A stretch of DNA of 44,245 nucleotides. Source: Gemmatimonas sp. (GTDB lineage Bacteria > Gemmatimonadota > Gemmatimonadetes > Longimicrobiales > Longimicrobiaceae). Shown here in pieces: positions 1 through 29,782 of the stretch. The notes under the pieces are model-generated. The model searched no databases and was not told the origin of the DNA. It worked only from the letters and a program-made list of their open reading frames with translations. The stretch is from contig WHSP01000021.1 of NCBI GenBank assembly GCA_009380025.1, forward strand, positions 1 through 44,245, given 5' to 3'. The first letter of the stretch is position 1. Every line of letters starts with the position of its first letter. Made by a program: the position numbers and the translations under genes.

Positions 1-1185
1 GCTTCCTGGCAGCACTGCTGGTGGGCGAGGTGCGACAGGGCGCGCTCGAGGGCGTGGTGCTCGAGGCGGTCGCGCGGGCGGCCGGCGTTCCGGCGGACCG
101 AGTGCGCCGGGCGGTGATGCTGGCCGGTGACCTTGGCACCGTAACGGCCGCGGTTCTCGGTGACGACCCCGATCGGGCTCTTCAGCGCTTCCAGCTGCAG
201 CTGTTCCGACCGATCCAGCCGATGCTCGCGGACTCCGCGCCAACCGTCGCGGATGCGTTGAGCGGCGGAGTGCCGGCGGCTGTGGAATGGAAGGTCGACG
301 GTGCGCGCATCCAGGTGCACCGTCACGACGACCGGGTGGCCGTGTACACCCGAAACCTGAACGATGTGACCGCCGTGGTACCGGAAGTCGTCGAGGTGGT
401 GCGGGCGCTGCCGGCTCGGGAGATGATCCTGGATGGCGAGGTCATCGCTCTCGGTCCCGGCGGGCGACCGCACTCCTTTCAGATCACCATGCGCCGCTTC
501 GGTCGGCGGCTCGATGTCGATCGGCTACGCGCCGAGCTTCCCGCTCACCCCGTTCTTCTTCGATCTCCTTCTTCACGACGACGAGATCCTCCTGGACGAG
601 CCGCTCGAGACGCGGTCGGCGCGACTCGCCCGGCTCGTCCCGCAAGAGTGGCGGGTGCCACGGATCGCTGCTGCCGGGGTCGACGAGGCATCCCGATTCG
701 AGGCGGATGCCCTCGCCCGTGGCCACGAGGGCGTGATGGTGAAGTCGCTCTCGGCGCCGTACGTCGCCGGCCGCAGGGGCGCGGCATGGCTCAAAGTGAA
801 AGTGGCACGTACGCTGGATCTCGTGGTGCTGGCGGCGGAGTGGGGGTCGGGGCGGCGCCGCGGGTGGCTCAGCAACCTGCACCTCGCTGCGCGCGATCCT
901 GACACCGACGGGTTCGTCATGCTCGGGAAGACCTTCAAGGGGATGACGGACGAGATGCTGGCGTGGCAGACGAAGGAACTGCTGGCGCGTGAGGTCGGCC
1001 GCGAGGGTCAAACTGTGTTCGTGCGTCCCGAGCTCGTCGTCGAGGTTGCGTTCAACCAGGTCCAGCGAAGCACGAACTACCTCGGCGGAGTGGCCCTGAG
1101 GTTCGCCCGGGTGAAGGGATACCGGCCGGACAGGGAGGCCGCGACGGCGGACACGATCGACGCCGTTCGCGCCCTCGTGACCTGA
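1..1185 (+). CDS. ATP-dependent DNA ligase, 5'-truncated by window edge, one frameshift
   Basis: Archaeal/bacterial-type ATP-dependent DNA ligase that seals nicks through an enzyme-AMP intermediate. Reading from base 3, the protein continues in frame from the window edge (FLAALLVGEVRQGALEG is typical of the ligase N-terminal DNA-binding domain), so the true start lies outside. The nucleotidyltransferase motif KVDG has its adenylated lysine at bases 291-293. The frame then breaks near 541-546: the first frame gives RAELP and the downstream frame resumes with LTPFFFDLLLHDDE, which needs one base removed. The second part carries the later nucleotidyltransferase motifs (EGVMVKSL, AAWLKVK) and the OB-fold C-terminus and ends at TGA 1183-1185. 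The downstream part reads cleanly to its natural end, so a sequencing indel and a real mutation are both possible. No operon partner is visible. Confidence 0.88.
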
Positions 1186-23708: not shown

Positions 23709-24434
23709 TCACGGGGCTTCTCGATTCTCTTTCCTCACGACGCCCTCCGGTCTCCGTCGAAAGATGGCCATCTGAGTTGCCGAACCGGCGAGCGGATCCT
23801 TTCGGCCGATGCCGCGGAACTCCGCTCGATACCCGCACCTCTCCGCAACGCCCTCCGCCCAGCGCTGGAATTTCGCACGGCTCCACTCGAATCGATGGTC
23901 CGGGTGACGCAGGCTGCCTTCCGGCACGCCGAGCAACGGATTGTACTCTCGGTTCGGCGTGGTCATCACGATCACGTCTGGCGCCCAGTATTCGAAGACG
24001 ACCCGCTCGATCTTCGACAGCTGTTCCGGCGGTACATGTTCAATCGTCTCCACCATTGCCGCAGCATGGTACCCGTCGAGCTCGGGGTGGGGCTGCGCGA
24101 ACGACCCGATAAATAGACTCACGCGCTCCCCCGACTCCTGAACGGCCGATCGGAGGCGATCGCGGGCTGTGGCGATCGCCTCCGGGGACGCGTCCATGCC
24201 GGCTAACGAATCGAACTGAGCGTGGCCCGCTAGTCGTTCGAGCAGCAGGCCTGTTCCGCAACCGAGGTCCACCACATTGCGGGCGCCACTCGCAGCGATC
24301 ACCTCGGCGACGGCGTCCAGTCGCTCTTGGTGAAGTTCAGTCGTCCAGGACGGGCGTGGATTGTGGAACCCTGGGCCGTCCGGCCGCGGTCTCCGATGCG
24401 GCCTCTTGGAACCGCCCGCTGTCCGTCTGATCAT
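23709..24434 (-). CDS. hen1: Hen1-type 3'-terminal RNA ribose methyltransferase domain
   Basis: 241-residue SAM methyltransferase that matches the C-terminal catalytic domain of Hen1, which adds a 2'-O-methyl to RNA 3' ends. Evidence: NVVDLGCGTG for SAM binding, metal ligands E129, E132 and H133 in METIEHVPP, the Hen1 block MTTPNREYN and RHPDHRFEWSRAKF with the further histidine ligand. In bacteria with the RNA-repair operon, Hen1 has an extra N-terminal ligase-like activation domain and sits beside Pnkp; both are missing here, so this is a stand-alone enzyme as in eukaryotes and some bacteria. ATG 24434 is a choice; the open frame runs to 24578 and would overlap infA. Confidence 0.85.
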   Translation of the reverse strand: MIRRTAGGSKRPHRRPRPDGPGFHNPRPSWTTELHQERLDAVAEVIAASGARNVVDLGCGTGLLLERLAGHAQFDSLAGMDASPEAIATARDRLRSAVQESGERVSLFIGSFAQPHPELDGYHAAAMVETIEHVPPEQLSKIERVVFEYWAPDVIVMTTPNREYNPLLGVPEGSLRHPDHRFEWSRAKFQRWAEGVAERCGYRAEFRGIGRKDPLAGSATQMAIFRRRPEGVVRKENREAP

Positions 24435-24549
24435 ATGACGAGTGGGTTTGGGCCGGCCCGGCGGTCGAGTCTTCTTCCTTGCAGCCACCCTCAGGCCGCT
24501 TTCCAGACCCGCGCTGGCACTTCGACAATGGAGGCTCGTCGCCTCGCTT

Positions 24550-24768
24550 TTACTTGTGTCGGAACGTGATGCGACCACGGCTCAGATCGTACGGCGACAC
24601 CTCGACGTCGACCCGATCTCCCTCGAGAACGCGGATTCGGTACTTCCTCATTTTGCCTGCGATCGTAGCCAGAACTTCATGCCCGTTGTCGAGCCGCACC
24701 CGGAAACGAAGATCCGGGAGAACCGAAGTCACTGCTCCCTGCACTTCAATCGCGTCCTGCTTCGCCAT
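24550..24768 (-). CDS. infA: Translation initiation factor IF-1
   Basis: 72 residues, full length for IF-1: [20 protein letters not shown], then [20 protein letters not shown] and the ending [18 protein letters not shown], an OB-fold that occupies the ribosomal A site during initiation. GGAGG lies six bases before the ATG. The methyltransferase gene follows on the same strand. Some bacteria carry extra infA copies away from the ribosomal-protein operons; whether this is the only copy cannot be told. Confidence 0.97.
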
Positions 24769-24865: not shown

Positions 24866-24906
24866 CAAACAACAAAGAAAACGCCCGGAGGGCGTCGGCC
24901 TCCCGG
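24866..24906 (-). terminator. Terminator-like hairpin at the end of repeat copy A
   Basis: Read on the minus strand, a GC-rich hairpin (arms at 24885-24893 and 24898-24906 with one mismatch, or alternatively ACGCCC/GGGCGT at 24881-24895) is followed by TTTTCTTTGTTGTTT. It ends an element homologous to the one at 26,750-27,080. Confidence 0.65.
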
Positions 24907-25170
24907 AGCGGTTAGCGAAATGCAAGCGTACTCGGCATTCTACGATCTAGACGACGCGGCAGGCGTAACTCCCTGACGGAAGGCCGTGCCTTTGGGCGAG
25001 TCTTCAGATCAGCGCTGTCCCACCCTGTCGAGGAAGCCGTCGCTGCTCGATGCAGCCGCTGTCGATCACGTTCATAACGCCCCTTTTTGGGGTCTCGGGC
25101 CGTCTGGCGCCACGCAAGCGGCGAAGGTGCAGCGGCGCAGTGGGTCGCAAGATCTGAGGCGCGTGCTAAC
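24866..25170 (-). repeat. Dispersed structured element, copy A
   Basis: On the minus strand this 300-base segment aligns collinearly with the plus strand of 26,790-27,080. Matching blocks: 25125-25102 against 26840-26863 (23 of 24 bases), 24965-24949 against 26990-27006 (16 of 17), 24930-24914 against 27025-27041 (16 of 17) and the terminal hairpin. Spacing between the last blocks is identical (18 bases). Indels between blocks are not multiples of three, so it is not conserved as protein. It holds a short open frame (25075-25004, 23 codons) preceded by a CCCC-AAAAA-GGGG hairpin, of unknown meaning. Confidence 0.6.
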
Positions 25171-25331
25171 ATGAAGCGGCAGCAGCGCTTTGTCGGACTC
25201 GCTTTTACAACTGGGAAAGCTAACCCGAGTCAGCGTCCCACGGCAACCCAGGATCTGGTACGATCGTCTAAGCCGTGACCGGCGCCCGCGGCGACTGACC
25301 ATCGCCAGCTGGTCCAGCGAACTCATCTTGC

Positions 25332-26403
25332 TCAATCCGCCGCGAGGCTGCGGGAGGTCTCGTCGTACGGGGACGAACCCGACGCTTCCGCGGGCGGCGG
25401 AATCATCGTGGCGAGAATCGCCGCTCCCATCGAGACGGTCCCGAAGAGCAGCAGCACGCTCGTGAACGATGAGGTGGATTGTGCCAATAAAGCCGCAACG
25501 GGTGGCCCGACGGCCGTGGCTCCGTTTCTTGCGGCCTGGACGATTCCTTTGATTCGGCCGAGGCTCAGGATTCCGAAATAGTCGGGCCACAGCACGGCGT
25601 TTGAAGGCGGGCAGCCGTAGGGTCTCCTGCAGCGAGTACTCGGGATCGGGCCGCCGATCGTCGAACCGTTGATTTTTTTCGACTACTCCGCTCGCCGCGA
25701 ATCCGTCAACGGTTTCGCCGGGGTGCCGGCCCCGAAGGGCCCACGCAACGAGTGGGGACGCCAGGAGCAGGTAGACCGCGCCGAAGAATGCCAGTGAGCT
25801 CCGCCAGCCGACACTCTCGATCAGAGCGTAGATCGCACTCGGAAACGCCAGCTCTCCGAGCGCGAACCCGAGGCTCGCGATCGCGAGTGCCCGTCCCCGG
25901 TAGCGGCTGAACCACCGGACAACCGTCGTGAGGGTGCCGAGCCCGATTGCCCCCTGTCCGAGGAGTCGCACCGCTACGAAAGCGACCGCAAGGCCGAGCG
26001 TGGTATCGACGCGGGAGAAGCCGATCATCGCCAAGCCCAGTAGAAAGATCGTCCCGCCGAGAAACAGCCGCGCCGAGATCCGATCCGCGAGTGCCCCGAC
26101 CGAAGGCAGAAAGCCTGCGGCGATGAGGGTCGCGATGGCGTAGATGGACGAGATCTCCACCCGCGATATGTCCAGGTCGCCCATCAACTCATCGAGGTAG
26201 AGAGCGATGGCGAACGACTGGCCGGGTGAGGTGAGGGCGGAGCAGAGGAAGGCGACGCCTACGACGACCCATCCATAGTAACCGCTGTTCGGGACGAGTC
26301 GCTTCAGCAAATCTCTGTCGGAGTCTCGTGGGCTCAGAGTGAGCGTTGTGCGCCGGTCTGTCCGGCGCCGCCTCCGTACCCGCAGATCGCGAACACGATC
26401 CAC
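25332..26403 (-). pseudogene. MFS transporter with internal deletion
   Basis: The N-terminal part (from GYYGWVVVGVAFLCSALTSP through six membrane helices with LADRISARLFLGG, MFS motif A, to PEYSLQETLRLPAF) belongs to an OFA-like major facilitator. At about 25,590-25,600 the frame changes and the sequence jumps to LWPDYFGILSLGRIKGIVQA and the last two helices, ending SGSSPYDETSRSLAAD. About 100 residues that should hold helices 7-10 are missing, so this is a deletion derivative and not just a frameshift. The start is not clear; no good ribosome site was seen. It lies between the two copies of the inverted element. Confidence 0.8.
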
Positions 26404-26536
26404 TCGACCGAGTCCTCCTCTGCCGACTGTGAGCCGGCTCGGCGAACGCGGTAATACGCCATCGATGAGGACCTGGACCGTGAGGGCTACAGGCGCCCTT
26501 TCGGCCAGCTCGAATGCCGGCTCGGCGTCGCGTGTC

Positions 26537-26702
26537 CTTGCTGCGCGGATTCGGCCAACAGATCCTGCGCGATTACGATCGCCTCGACGTGCTGGTGAGC
26601 AACGCCGGCATCTGGCTGACGCCCGAGCAGGGACGACGGGTGAGCGCGGACGGGCACGAGATGCACTTCGCCGTCAACTACCTCTCCCATTATCTGACAG
26701 CT
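26537..26702 (+). pseudogene. N-terminal fragment of a short-chain dehydrogenase
   Basis: The reading LRDYDRLDVLVSNAGIWLTP and EMHFAVNYLSHYLT contains the SDR motif (N-A-G) and the conserved NYL helix that follows. The glycine-rich nucleotide-binding start and the catalytic Tyr/Lys are absent. It ends abruptly just before the promoter of repeat copy B, which suggests that the insertion or formation of that element cut the gene. The flanking stretch 26,404-26,536 holds no recognisable gene. Confidence 0.7.
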
Positions 26703-26716
26703 GCAGTCGAGGCGCC

Positions 26717-26745
26717 TTGTGCATGAAAGACATAGGGTATATTAT
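26717..26745 (+). promoter_or_regulatory. Promoter in front of repeat copy B
   Basis: TTGTGC (26717-26722) and TATTAT (26740-26745) are separated by exactly 17 bases, in the most AT-rich short stretch of the neighbourhood. Transcription would begin near 26,752, directly at a GCGCGG/CCGCGC hairpin (26754-26770). Confidence 0.6.
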
Positions 26746-26751
26746 ACAAGG

Positions 26752-27080
26752 TTGCGCGGGCTGACCGCGCGATGTGCTGCCGCGAGGAGTTCGCTGCGGC
26801 ACGCGCCAGGATCTGAAGACAGGCTGCCGCCGCTGCGCTTTCGCCGCTTGCGTGCCGCCAGACTGCCCCAGGGACTCGGGAGCGTGAAGACGATGGAAAA
26901 CGGCAGCTTCGAACGCATCGAATCGATCGCGGCCACTCAGCCCTGACTCAATACGTACGCAATCGGGCACGGCTTCCGTGAGGAGGTTGCGCCTGCCGCG
27001 TCATCTGGCTCGAAATCGCCCGAATACGCTTGCAGTTCGCTCCCGCCCCGGAGGCCGATGCCTCCGGGGCGTTTTGTTGT
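26752..27080 (+). ncRNA. Putative structured RNA, repeat copy B
   Basis: A promoter, about 300 bases rich in perfect short stems (GCGCGG/CCGCGC at 26754-26770, TGCCGC/GCGGCA shortly after) and a strong terminator make a self-contained transcription unit with no substantial gene. Its 3' two thirds are homologous to copy A in inverted orientation. It contains a 17-codon open frame (ATG 26893 to TGA 26946) that is not conserved in copy A. It does not have the marks of tmRNA, RNase P RNA, 6S or SRP RNA. A small RNA or the end of an uncharacterised mobile element would both fit. Confidence 0.45.
27046..27080 (+). terminator. Rho-independent terminator of copy B
   Basis: CCCCGGAGGC-CGAT-GCCTCCGGGG is a perfect ten-base-pair stem with a four-base loop (27046-27069), followed by CGTTTTGTTGT. 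One of the strongest terminators in the window. Confidence 0.85.
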
Positions 27081-27139: not shown

Positions 27140-27412
27140 ATGTTTCTCACGATGCTCGAGCATGGGGGACGAAGCTGGGTGGTAGACCTGAAGGCGATTC
27201 CCGAGACGGAAGGACTCGGGACGCTCGAGTTCTCGTTCTCGAATACGGCTGCGGACGGTTTGCAGCTCCGGCTCACCTGGCGGGTCACGGGGAAAGCGCT
27301 TCAGGTCTTGTCGCAGCAGGGCGCGAACATCAGTGAAGACGTGCTGCGTCGACAGTTGGATCGGGCGCTCGCGGAGGCGAGGTCCGTGGACGCGAACGTG
27401 GCGGGACCTTAG
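27140..27412 (+). CDS. Hypothetical protein (90 residues)
   Basis: Not recognised. It starts at ATG 27140 with GGGGGAG just before it. The first two thirds have the alternation of a small beta structure (LGTLEFSFSNTAADGLQLRL, then TWRVTGKALQVL), the last third is a helix (SEDVLRRQLDRALAEARSVD). No signal peptide or metal motif. Followed by a CBS-domain fragment in the same direction. Confidence 0.6.
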   Translation: MFLTMLEHGGRSWVVDLKAIPETEGLGTLEFSFSNTAADGLQLRLTWRVTGKALQVLSQQGANISEDVLRRQLDRALAEARSVDANVAGP

Positions 27413-27503: not shown

Positions 27504-27719
27504 ATGACGGGAATGACGATGTCCGGATTGACCGCGGCGAAGCTCATGGGTCCGATCCCGGAAGCTGTGACCCTCAAATCCACCGCGGGCGAAGTTCGTC
27601 GGCGCATGCGAGACGAAGATCTCGAGTTCCTTCCCGTAGTAGCCGAGGACACAGGCTCGGTTGGAGCAGCTCTTGTATCGATTCACGCGGTGGGTAGCTG
27701 GCCCGAGGCCAGCGATTGA
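27504..27719 (+). CDS. Truncated CBS-domain protein
   Basis: 71 residues resembling one CBS motif: AAKLMGPIPEAVTLKSTAGE, then VRRRMRDEDLEFLPVVAEDT and GSVGAAL. CBS domains bind adenosyl ligands as pairs; here the second repeat and the closing strand of the first are missing, and the last residues run straight into two hairpins. Probably a truncated gene; a short functional CBS protein is less likely. Confidence 0.6.
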   Translation: MTGMTMSGLTAAKLMGPIPEAVTLKSTAGEVRRRMRDEDLEFLPVVAEDTGSVGAALVSIHAVGSWPEASD

Positions 27720-27800: not shown

Positions 27801-28253
27801 GTGGACGATGCCCACGGCCATGGACCGCGAAAGGATCTCGTTTTCTTCGACACCGTTCCGCAACGGATGATGAACAGGAAACCCAGCAAACCTCAGGACG
27901 GGAGCCGGAAGGGGGCCCAGAAGCGTTCCTCGACGGGAAGAGACCGCACCGCGCAGGCGACCGGCCGCATACGCGAGCCACGGGCGGCGATCGGTACTTC
28001 GCGACTTCGCGTCACCCTGATCCAGCACGAGTCTGTGATTTGGAACGTGTATCTGCGCAGTGAGCGAGACGCCGACACGACGACCCGCTCGCTCGAGTTC
28101 GAGCGAGCAGACACGAACGGCTCTGACCGAACCTATTGCCGAGCACTTACAGAAAAGCTCGAGCAAGCGTTCCAGACAGGGCAGGGGTTGCAACGCGACG
28201 ATTTGGTTGCGGAGCTCGAGCTTGCGATGGCCGGCGGTGAGAGAGGTCGGTGA
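27801..28253 (+). CDS. Hypothetical protein, C-terminal domain plausible
   Basis: Open frame of 150 codons, family not recognised. The N-terminal 60 residues are low-complexity and may not be translated. From about residue 65 the sequence becomes protein-like: LRVTLIQHESVIWNVYLRSE, then RSLEFERADTNGSDRTYCRA and a helical tail (LTEKLEQAFQTGQGLQRDDL). The real start may be internal. Ends 33 bases from the convergent spermidine-synthase-like gene. Confidence 0.45.
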   Translation: MDDAHGHGPRKDLVFFDTVPQRMMNRKPSKPQDGSRKGAQKRSSTGRDRTAQATGRIREPRAAIGTSRLRVTLIQHESVIWNVYLRSERDADTTTRSLEFERADTNGSDRTYCRALTEKLEQAFQTGQGLQRDDLVAELELAMAGGERGR

Positions 28254-28285: not shown

Positions 28286-29005
28286 TCACACACTCTCAGC
28301 GGAGAGGTGCATCCCACGGGCGAGGAAGATCCAATCGGTAGTGTTCTCGTCAACGAGATCGTTGAAGTACGTGATCGGCTCAACCCGAACCTCTCGAAAC
28401 ACTTGGTCCAGAGCCGTCGAAAAATCTGAGTTCTGCGCATGCGACCAGATCCCCAAGATGCCTTCCGGCGCCAGATGGCGCCCCGCGCGCTCTAGGCCGT
28501 GTTTCGAGTAGAAGCTGTCGTTGGACTTACTGAGCGGCTCGTCCGGAGAGTGGTCCACATCGATCAGCACGAGATCGAAAAGCTCGGCGGGTTCCTCCGA
28601 AAGTCGACGGAAGATGTCACCCTCAATTGCGGTGAACCGTTCGTCTTCCTTCAGCTCACATGAAATCGGAGTCAGGTCCTGCTCCACCCATTCGATGACC
28701 TGTGGCAGGAATTCGATCACCTGTGCTCTTTCGACACGAGGGCTCGATAGCGCCGCATGCGCCGTGTACCCGAGGCCCAATCCTCCGATAAGGACGTTCA
28801 GCCGCGCACCCGAGTGCCAGTCCAGCGGAATCCGGGCGAGCGCCCGCTCGGACTCGGTGTTGTAGCTGCTCATCAAGAACGCGTGGTTGAGCGTTACTTC
28901 CGTGACGATCGTTCCAGGTCTTGAAAGCAGCCGCCGCCGCCGGAGGCAGAGCGGACCGAGAACCGTGTCTTCGTAAGCGAGGATTTCGAGGTTTCTAGCC
29001 GGCAT
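28286..29005 (-). CDS. Spermidine-synthase-like methyltransferase-fold protein
   Basis: 239-residue protein of the spermine/spermidine synthase superfamily. The nucleotide-binding loop is LNVLIGGLGLGYTAHAAL, the acidic residue after strand 2 is in AQVIEFLPQVIEW, and the catalytic-site region is LVLIDVDHSPDEPLSKSND with an aspartate where polyamine synthases have their key Asp. The final domain is GILGIWSHAQNSDFSTALDQ. Many bacterial members of this size have unknown substrates, so polyamine synthesis is not assured. Confidence 0.85.
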   Translation of the reverse strand: MPARNLEILAYEDTVLGPLCLRRRRLLSRPGTIVTEVTLNHAFLMSSYNTESERALARIPLDWHSGARLNVLIGGLGLGYTAHAALSSPRVERAQVIEFLPQVIEWVEQDLTPISCELKEDERFTAIEGDIFRRLSEEPAELFDLVLIDVDHSPDEPLSKSNDSFYSKHGLERAGRHLAPEGILGIWSHAQNSDFSTALDQVFREVRVEPITYFNDLVDENTTDWIFLARGMHLSAESV

Positions 29006-29251: not shown

Positions 29252-29644
29252 CTATTTGCTTGAGGGCCGGCCGTCGTACGTGCTTGTGATCAACTCCAAT
29301 CCGTGGCCGGAAGGATCAATAAAGTAAACGCCTCGGCCCCCGTGGTTCGTGTTGATCTCGCCTGGTCGGCGCCAGTGCGGGTCGGCGGCATACTCGACGC
29401 CGCGAGCGCGGATGCGGTCGAAGCTGGCGTCGAATTCCTCCTCGCTGACCAGGAACGCGTAGTGCTGGCTGGGGAAGTCGATTCCGGGCTCGGCGTACTG
29501 TACTGTCACGTGATTCGCCAGATCGACGGCCAAAAAGATTCCCGCGGTCCGCGGGGGTGAGAGTCCCAAGATCTCAGTCAGAAATCGCGCAGACTCATGC
29601 TTGTCACGGGCGAAAATGATGAGGTGGTTGAGCTCGACCGTCAT
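29252..29644 (-). CDS. VOC/glyoxalase superfamily protein
   Basis: 130 residues with two beta-alpha-beta-beta-beta modules of the vicinal oxygen chelate fold. VELNHLIIFARDKHESARFL is the first module with a candidate metal histidine; HYAFLVSEEEFDASFDRIRA begins the second, which ends in GVYFIDPSGHGLELIT with the usual glutamate. Members include dioxygenases, glyoxalase I and antibiotic-binding proteins; the specific reaction is unknown. ATG 29644 gives the correct family length. Confidence 0.88.
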   Translation of the reverse strand: MTVELNHLIIFARDKHESARFLTEILGLSPPRTAGIFLAVDLANHVTVQYAEPGIDFPSQHYAFLVSEEEFDASFDRIRARGVEYAADPHWRRPGEINTNHGGRGVYFIDPSGHGLELITSTYDGRPSSK

Positions 29645-29782
29645 CGAATCTGTTGGCAGTAAATTGCAGGTGTTGATGGTCCGCCGGACCCGTTTCGGAC
29701 GGGCGATGCTATCCTTCAAGGAGACGAGCGTCAACCGCCGACCCGATCTCCCTCCACAGTTTCGCCGTTCCACCCAGACTGC

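Follow-up and report, generated by a model that had tools for sequence, protein, structure and literature searches.

Two kinds of described RNA come closest to the sequence units A and B that are the subject of this report, which lie in inverted orientation within 44,245 nucleotides of Gemmatimonas sp. DNA (contig WHSP01000021.1; "the window" is this whole stretch). The first are terminator-controlled leader RNAs (attenuators and transcriptional riboswitches): A and B are like these in lying 5' of genes on the same strand, in carrying an intrinsic terminator and, possibly, in having a mutually exclusive antiterminator; they differ in matching no Rfam family and having no homologues, in a "sensor" domain that is structurally unsupported, and in an antiterminator that is statistically weak. 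The second are paralogous intergenic small RNAs (sRNAs) with Rho-independent terminators; lineage-specific sRNAs without homologues are common. A and B resemble these in size, terminator, conservation at the level of RNA and existence as two copies, and are unlike them in being adjacent, divergent, and placed at the head of gene sets that are related elsewhere. A third system provides context only: Pnkp-Rnl-Hen1 is a bacterial RNA repair system (PMC4411300), and a Hen1 methyltransferase domain is encoded in the gene two positions behind A, here as the C-terminal domain alone and beside infA.

A and B are an orphan pair, at least partly structured at the 3' end and without known relatives, and belong broadly with those bacterial leader RNAs and small RNAs that end in a terminator; that they have a regulatory role is our hypothesis. 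The features referred to below are collected in Table 1.

Table 1. Features of the A/B locus (positions in the window)
Feature	Position	Strand	Remarks
Copy A, conserved unit	24872..25168	-	5' end 25168, terminator near 24880; homologous to B
Copy B, conserved unit	26794..27077	+	homologous to A
5' domain of A	25097..25166	-	highest conservation, ~90% in its best 30-nt windows
5' domain of B	26799..26868	+	from the conservation profile
3' domain of A	24934..24990	-	outer stem GGCA/UGCC, hairpins CUUCC-GUCA-GGGAG and ACGC-CUGCC-GCGU
3' domain of B	26965..27021	+	outer stem GGGC/GCCC, hairpins CUUCC-GUGA-GGAGG and GCGC-CUGCC-GCGU
Possible antiterminator strand of A, CGGCCUUCCG	24977..24986	-	complement of 24905-24896, CGGGAGGCCG; weak
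Possible antiterminator strand of B, CGGCUUCCG	26970..26978	+	complement of 27049-27057, CGGAGGCCG; weak
Terminator-like hairpin and T tail of A	24870..24910	-	scan: 24896-24880, 7 bp; consensus fold: longer bulged stem
Terminator-like hairpin and T tail of B	27044..27080	+	scan: hairpin 27044-27071, 12 bp
Candidate promoter of B, TTGTGC-17-TATTAT	26717..26745	+	read from the letters; fails the scan
infA (IF-1)	24550..24768	-	TIGR00008, E 4.4e-31; first gene after A, ~100 nt past its terminator
Stand-alone Hen1-type 3'-terminal RNA 2'-O-methyltransferase domain	23709..24578	-	TIGR04074, E 1.2e-64; downstream of infA
P1, 90-aa ORF	27140..27412	+	~60 nt past the B terminator
CBS-like short ORF	27504..27719	+	PF00571, E 0.011, under cut-off
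P2, small protein	27801..28253	+	in genome G029 its relative lies immediately before a stand-alone hen1
MFS transporter pseudogene	25335..26313	-	frame change and deletion near 25600
Short-chain dehydrogenase fragment	26484..26722	+	ends at the B promoter region

Two homologous units without a protein-coding signal

The A/B pair is real, and its members are paralogous units, apparently of noncoding RNA. Whole-genome BLAST aligns them at 98.7 bits and 70% identity (E 2.8e-21 and 3.0e-21 in the two directions), and their local alignment scores 167, where none of 300 shuffles exceeds 32; its 280 ungapped columns comprise 185 identities, 42 transitions and 53 transversions. The homology spans the full length of both units: its 3' limit is the T tail of the terminator, and its upstream limit falls near the guessed start site of B. 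The collinear blocks by which an earlier note on this DNA had recognized the pair are present (23/24 identical in TTCGCCGCTTGCGTG[G/C]CGCCAGAC, 16/17 in GTT[A/G]CGCCTGCCGCGTC and 16/17 in TACGCTTGCA[T/G]TTCGCT). BLAST of the host genome, a 97% complete assembly of 5.0 Mb in 478 contigs, finds no third copy.

Conservation is distributed very unevenly: identity is ~90% in the 5' domain, falls to 30-60% in the middle, and recovers to 70-87% in the 3' domain, which continues into the terminator, with a variance exceeding that of all 5000 shuffles (p < 0.001). The pairwise test for protein coding is not significant in either direction (p 0.60 forward, 0.11 reverse). Could either unit nevertheless be a translated leader or a small protein gene? 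Short reading frames do exist: an 86-aa ORF in A (25172-24912), and, in the middle region of both copies, an ORF of 20-23 codons that follows a purine-rich stretch and whose residues differ between A and B mostly conservatively. Against translation stand the negative coding test, the breakage in B of the frame that is open for 86 codons in A, and indels that are out of phase; we regard this explanation as very improbable. These same out-of-phase indels and negative tests, together with block-wise identity and the consensus structure of the 3' domain and terminator, bear out the view of the earlier note that conservation is at the level of RNA or DNA rather than of protein.

Structure at the 3' end and the debris between the copies

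RNA structure of the units is supported at the 3' end only. With just two sequences to compare, the consensus structure of 3' domain plus terminator has a z of -3.8, the terminator alone -4.5, and the 3' domain without the terminator -2.0 (p 0.036); these values must be read in the knowledge that domain borders were set after the conservation profile was known and that several domains were tested, in every case on the same two sequences. The 5' domain yields no structural signal (z +1.1, likewise from two sequences), the consensus for the whole element reaches only z -1.5, and the folding energies of the single sequences are ordinary (z -0.34 and -0.86). Between the copies, the outer stem of the 3' domain is altered on both sides in two of its pairs. 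The reverse strand of 3' domain plus terminator scores z -2.9, making the strand preference of the structure modest; the T tail is found on the stated strand only. An intrinsic terminator of the sort that attenuator and riboswitch leaders possess is seen in both units by sequence pattern as well as by consensus fold. For B the scan counts two base pairs beyond the ten given in the earlier note.

The letters of the B promoter proposed in the earlier note are in place; because they agree with the consensus at only 8 of 12 positions and do not pass the scan, this promoter is a guess. No promoter is recognizable for A, and the scan finds no sigma-70-like site between either terminator and its downstream ORF.

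What lies between A and B is gene debris, as already described in the earlier note: the deleted MFS gene matches Pfam MFS_1 twice, each time in another frame (E 1.3e-22 and 3.1e-7), and the cut dehydrogenase is a short adh_short fragment (E 4.7e-4). In such surroundings A and B might themselves be relics, duplicated and decayed DNA originating as a pseudogene or as the ends of a non-autonomous element. The neighboring debris, the inverted arrangement, and the existence of only two copies without relatives are what one would expect of relics; the strongly uneven conservation, the paired changes in 3' stem and terminator, the coincidence of the similarity boundary with the terminator, and the lack of a third copy (with the genome 97% complete), of a coding signal and of any match in a plasmid search are not. 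On balance a relic origin is unlikely. Its transposon variant, which the earlier note had also offered, lacks support, given the confinement of the sequence to two copies in the host genome where a non-autonomous transposable element should have multiple, a 3' similarity boundary that lies at a terminator, and 30% divergence between the copies: A and B are unlikely to be transposon ends.

Relatives, and the genes behind the terminators

No Rfam family matches A or B at its gathering threshold, and the best sub-threshold matches are mostly to terminator hairpins. BLAST against 40 relatives and 20 family members finds no homologue (two weak family matches, L012 and L013, did not extend). A two-sequence profile finds nothing believable in 154 genomes of the order or in a 395-genome sample of the phylum, yielding only partial matches of 14-20 bits; of nine that were checked, most lie in long reading frames, one of them EF-G-like, and the matches are treated as chance. 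Because filters were stricter in searches across more than 40 genomes, these may have missed remote relatives. GTDB and IMG/VR, scanned for an exact core, likewise show no believable homologue: the pattern GCCGCTTGCGTGNCGCCAGAC occurs in two genome contigs and one viral contig, where similarity ends within ~35-55 nt around the core and the frames are open, and a second pattern has no match in viral contigs. A literature search on noncoding RNA in Gemmatimonadota turned up general works only. Thus the search for further copies in host and related genomes that the earlier note had called for comes up empty, and its "new small RNA family" is possible, though of two members in one genome, with no third copy or outside relative; by that note's own rule for abandoning the claim, the family is not established, because further copies, and covariation in relatives, are lacking.

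What the earlier note overlooked are the genes behind both terminators. Each lies ~60-100 nt before an ORF on the same strand that has a Shine-Dalgarno-like sequence, and it is these same-strand downstream genes that suggest a role for A and B as leaders. Behind A come infA and hen1, whose true start is probably inside the listed ORF. The Hen1-type match covers positions 263-462 of the TIGR04074 profile only and scores 218.5 bits against a cut-off of 340: this is the C-terminal methyltransferase part alone and not a full-length bacterial Hen1. (Stand-alone Hen1 C-terminal methyltransferase domains are also found in a few genomes of the order, at G029 L057 3885-4511 and in G004 L058; other genomes of the order show longer Hen1-like frames.)

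Behind B come P1, the CBS-like ORF and P2. P1 is weakly similar to P2 (E 0.014), and none of the 154 order genomes contains a P1 homologue. For P2, the 395 phylum genomes contain a single convincing relative, in G029, a member of another family of the order, where the ORF overlaps the start of the stand-alone hen1 and a Macro-domain gene lies just upstream. The genes behind A and those behind B thus belong together elsewhere. (A match to P2 in G391 was dropped: its frame lies opposite an ATPase-like ORF.) The predicted structure of P2 (pLDDT 73) is a beta sheet followed by two helices. The model has no significant Foldseek match, and no fold was assigned: resemblances to PUR or PC4-type folds stay under Z 5 and stand among unrelated entries.

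Several side observations may be recorded here. No Pfam or NCBIfam family matches P1 or P2 (27140-28253), which together constitute a family of small proteins. The G029 row (L057 2720-4511: Macro-domain gene, P2-like small protein and stand-alone hen1, the last two overlapping) is a possible, undescribed RNA-related gene cassette. Near P2 lies a gene for a spermidine-synthase-like protein (28286-29005, minus strand; PF01564, E 4e-5); the window also encodes a glyoxalase-fold protein (29255-29665, minus strand) resembling Fos fosfomycin-resistance enzymes, far under curated cut-offs. At the other end, a DNA-ligase-like gene (recognized by eye; 21-1185, plus strand) apparently runs in two frames (ORFs 21-902 and 433-1185), perhaps because of a frameshift.

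Attenuators or small RNAs?

The simplest reading of the map would be two divergent operons with one copy of the unit at the head of each and debris in between. We tentatively favor the proposal that A and B are paired, terminated leader RNAs, that is, attenuators, of these operons. On the minus strand A stands before infA and the stand-alone Hen1-type RNA methyltransferase; on the plus strand B stands before P1, the CBS-like ORF and P2. With a length of ~290-330 nt, each transcript would comprise a conserved 5' domain, a variable middle, and a 3' domain folded into an outer stem and two hairpins, and would usually end at the intrinsic terminator, the unit acting as a 5' leader through premature termination. 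So long as the 3' domain is folded, the terminator would form and a short RNA would be released. The conserved 5' domain would read a signal, upon which the first-hairpin strand CGGCYUUCCG would instead pair with the terminator's 5' arm, and the resulting antitermination would allow RNA polymerase to continue into infA/hen1 or P1/P2. The placement of the units fits: both are 5' of the start codons, of infA and P1 respectively, and on the same strand, and each could share one transcript with its genes.

The candidate antiterminator strands of A and B are placed alike, a short way into the 3' domain, and their pairing with the terminator's 5' arm would be incompatible with the terminator and with the first 3' hairpin alike. 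The predicted pairing energies are -21.0 and -17.9 kcal/mol in the two copies (-19.2 in both for an overlapping window). Joint column shuffles make the conserved, antiterminator-like complement weakly significant: p 0.029 when judged by the weaker copy, 0.063 by summed energy. Taken singly the copies are not unusual for this window, which is rich in G+C: among its unrelated 240-nt stretches, 14% for A and 24% for B contain an equally good complement to the same arm. For the B transcript, as long as the 3' arm of the terminator is still to be made, the best predicted fold is the antiterminator pairing; the predicted intermediate fold of A lacks it. Attenuation is unproven on account of these joint probabilities, the ordinariness of each copy alone, and an intermediate fold seen only in B. 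Against a leader, too, are the absence of structural signal from the 5' domain, the supposed sensor, the failure to find a P1 homologue in the order, and the lack of a recognizable promoter for A. Nor is a leader like A or B found at the hen1/P2 locus of G029, and to be without relatives there or elsewhere is unusual for a riboswitch-like element.

Might A and B instead be two paralogous trans-acting sRNAs, independent units each with its own promoter and Rho-independent terminator, whose downstream genes are unrelated neighbors? The variable middle would then serve target-specific pairing, and the conserved ends would bind a protein or stabilize the RNA. Unit length, terminator and the promoter-like site of B fit such sRNAs, as do the ending of A/B similarity at the terminator and the conservation of the ends around a divergent middle, and the dearth of homologues is commonplace for lineage-specific sRNAs. 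What sRNAs leave unexplained is why both copies should lie upstream of same-strand genes whose counterparts are grouped together in G029; they are also without target support, and A without a recognizable promoter. We consider this a serious possibility and rank it close behind attenuation, which is our leading predicted mechanism.

A bolder version of the attenuator proposal is that A and B represent a previously undescribed class of leader RNA whose signal would be either translational state or damage to RNA, and which would switch on, by antitermination, two divergent operons encoding IF-1, a stand-alone 3'-end RNA methyltransferase and a small-protein family. That much is improbable. If a regulatory role of A and B is real, it would add a new RNA regulator linked to the little-studied stand-alone Hen1 methyltransferase and to the infA gene; as matters stand, the orphan RNA pair points to an uncharacterized small-protein/Hen1 gene set.
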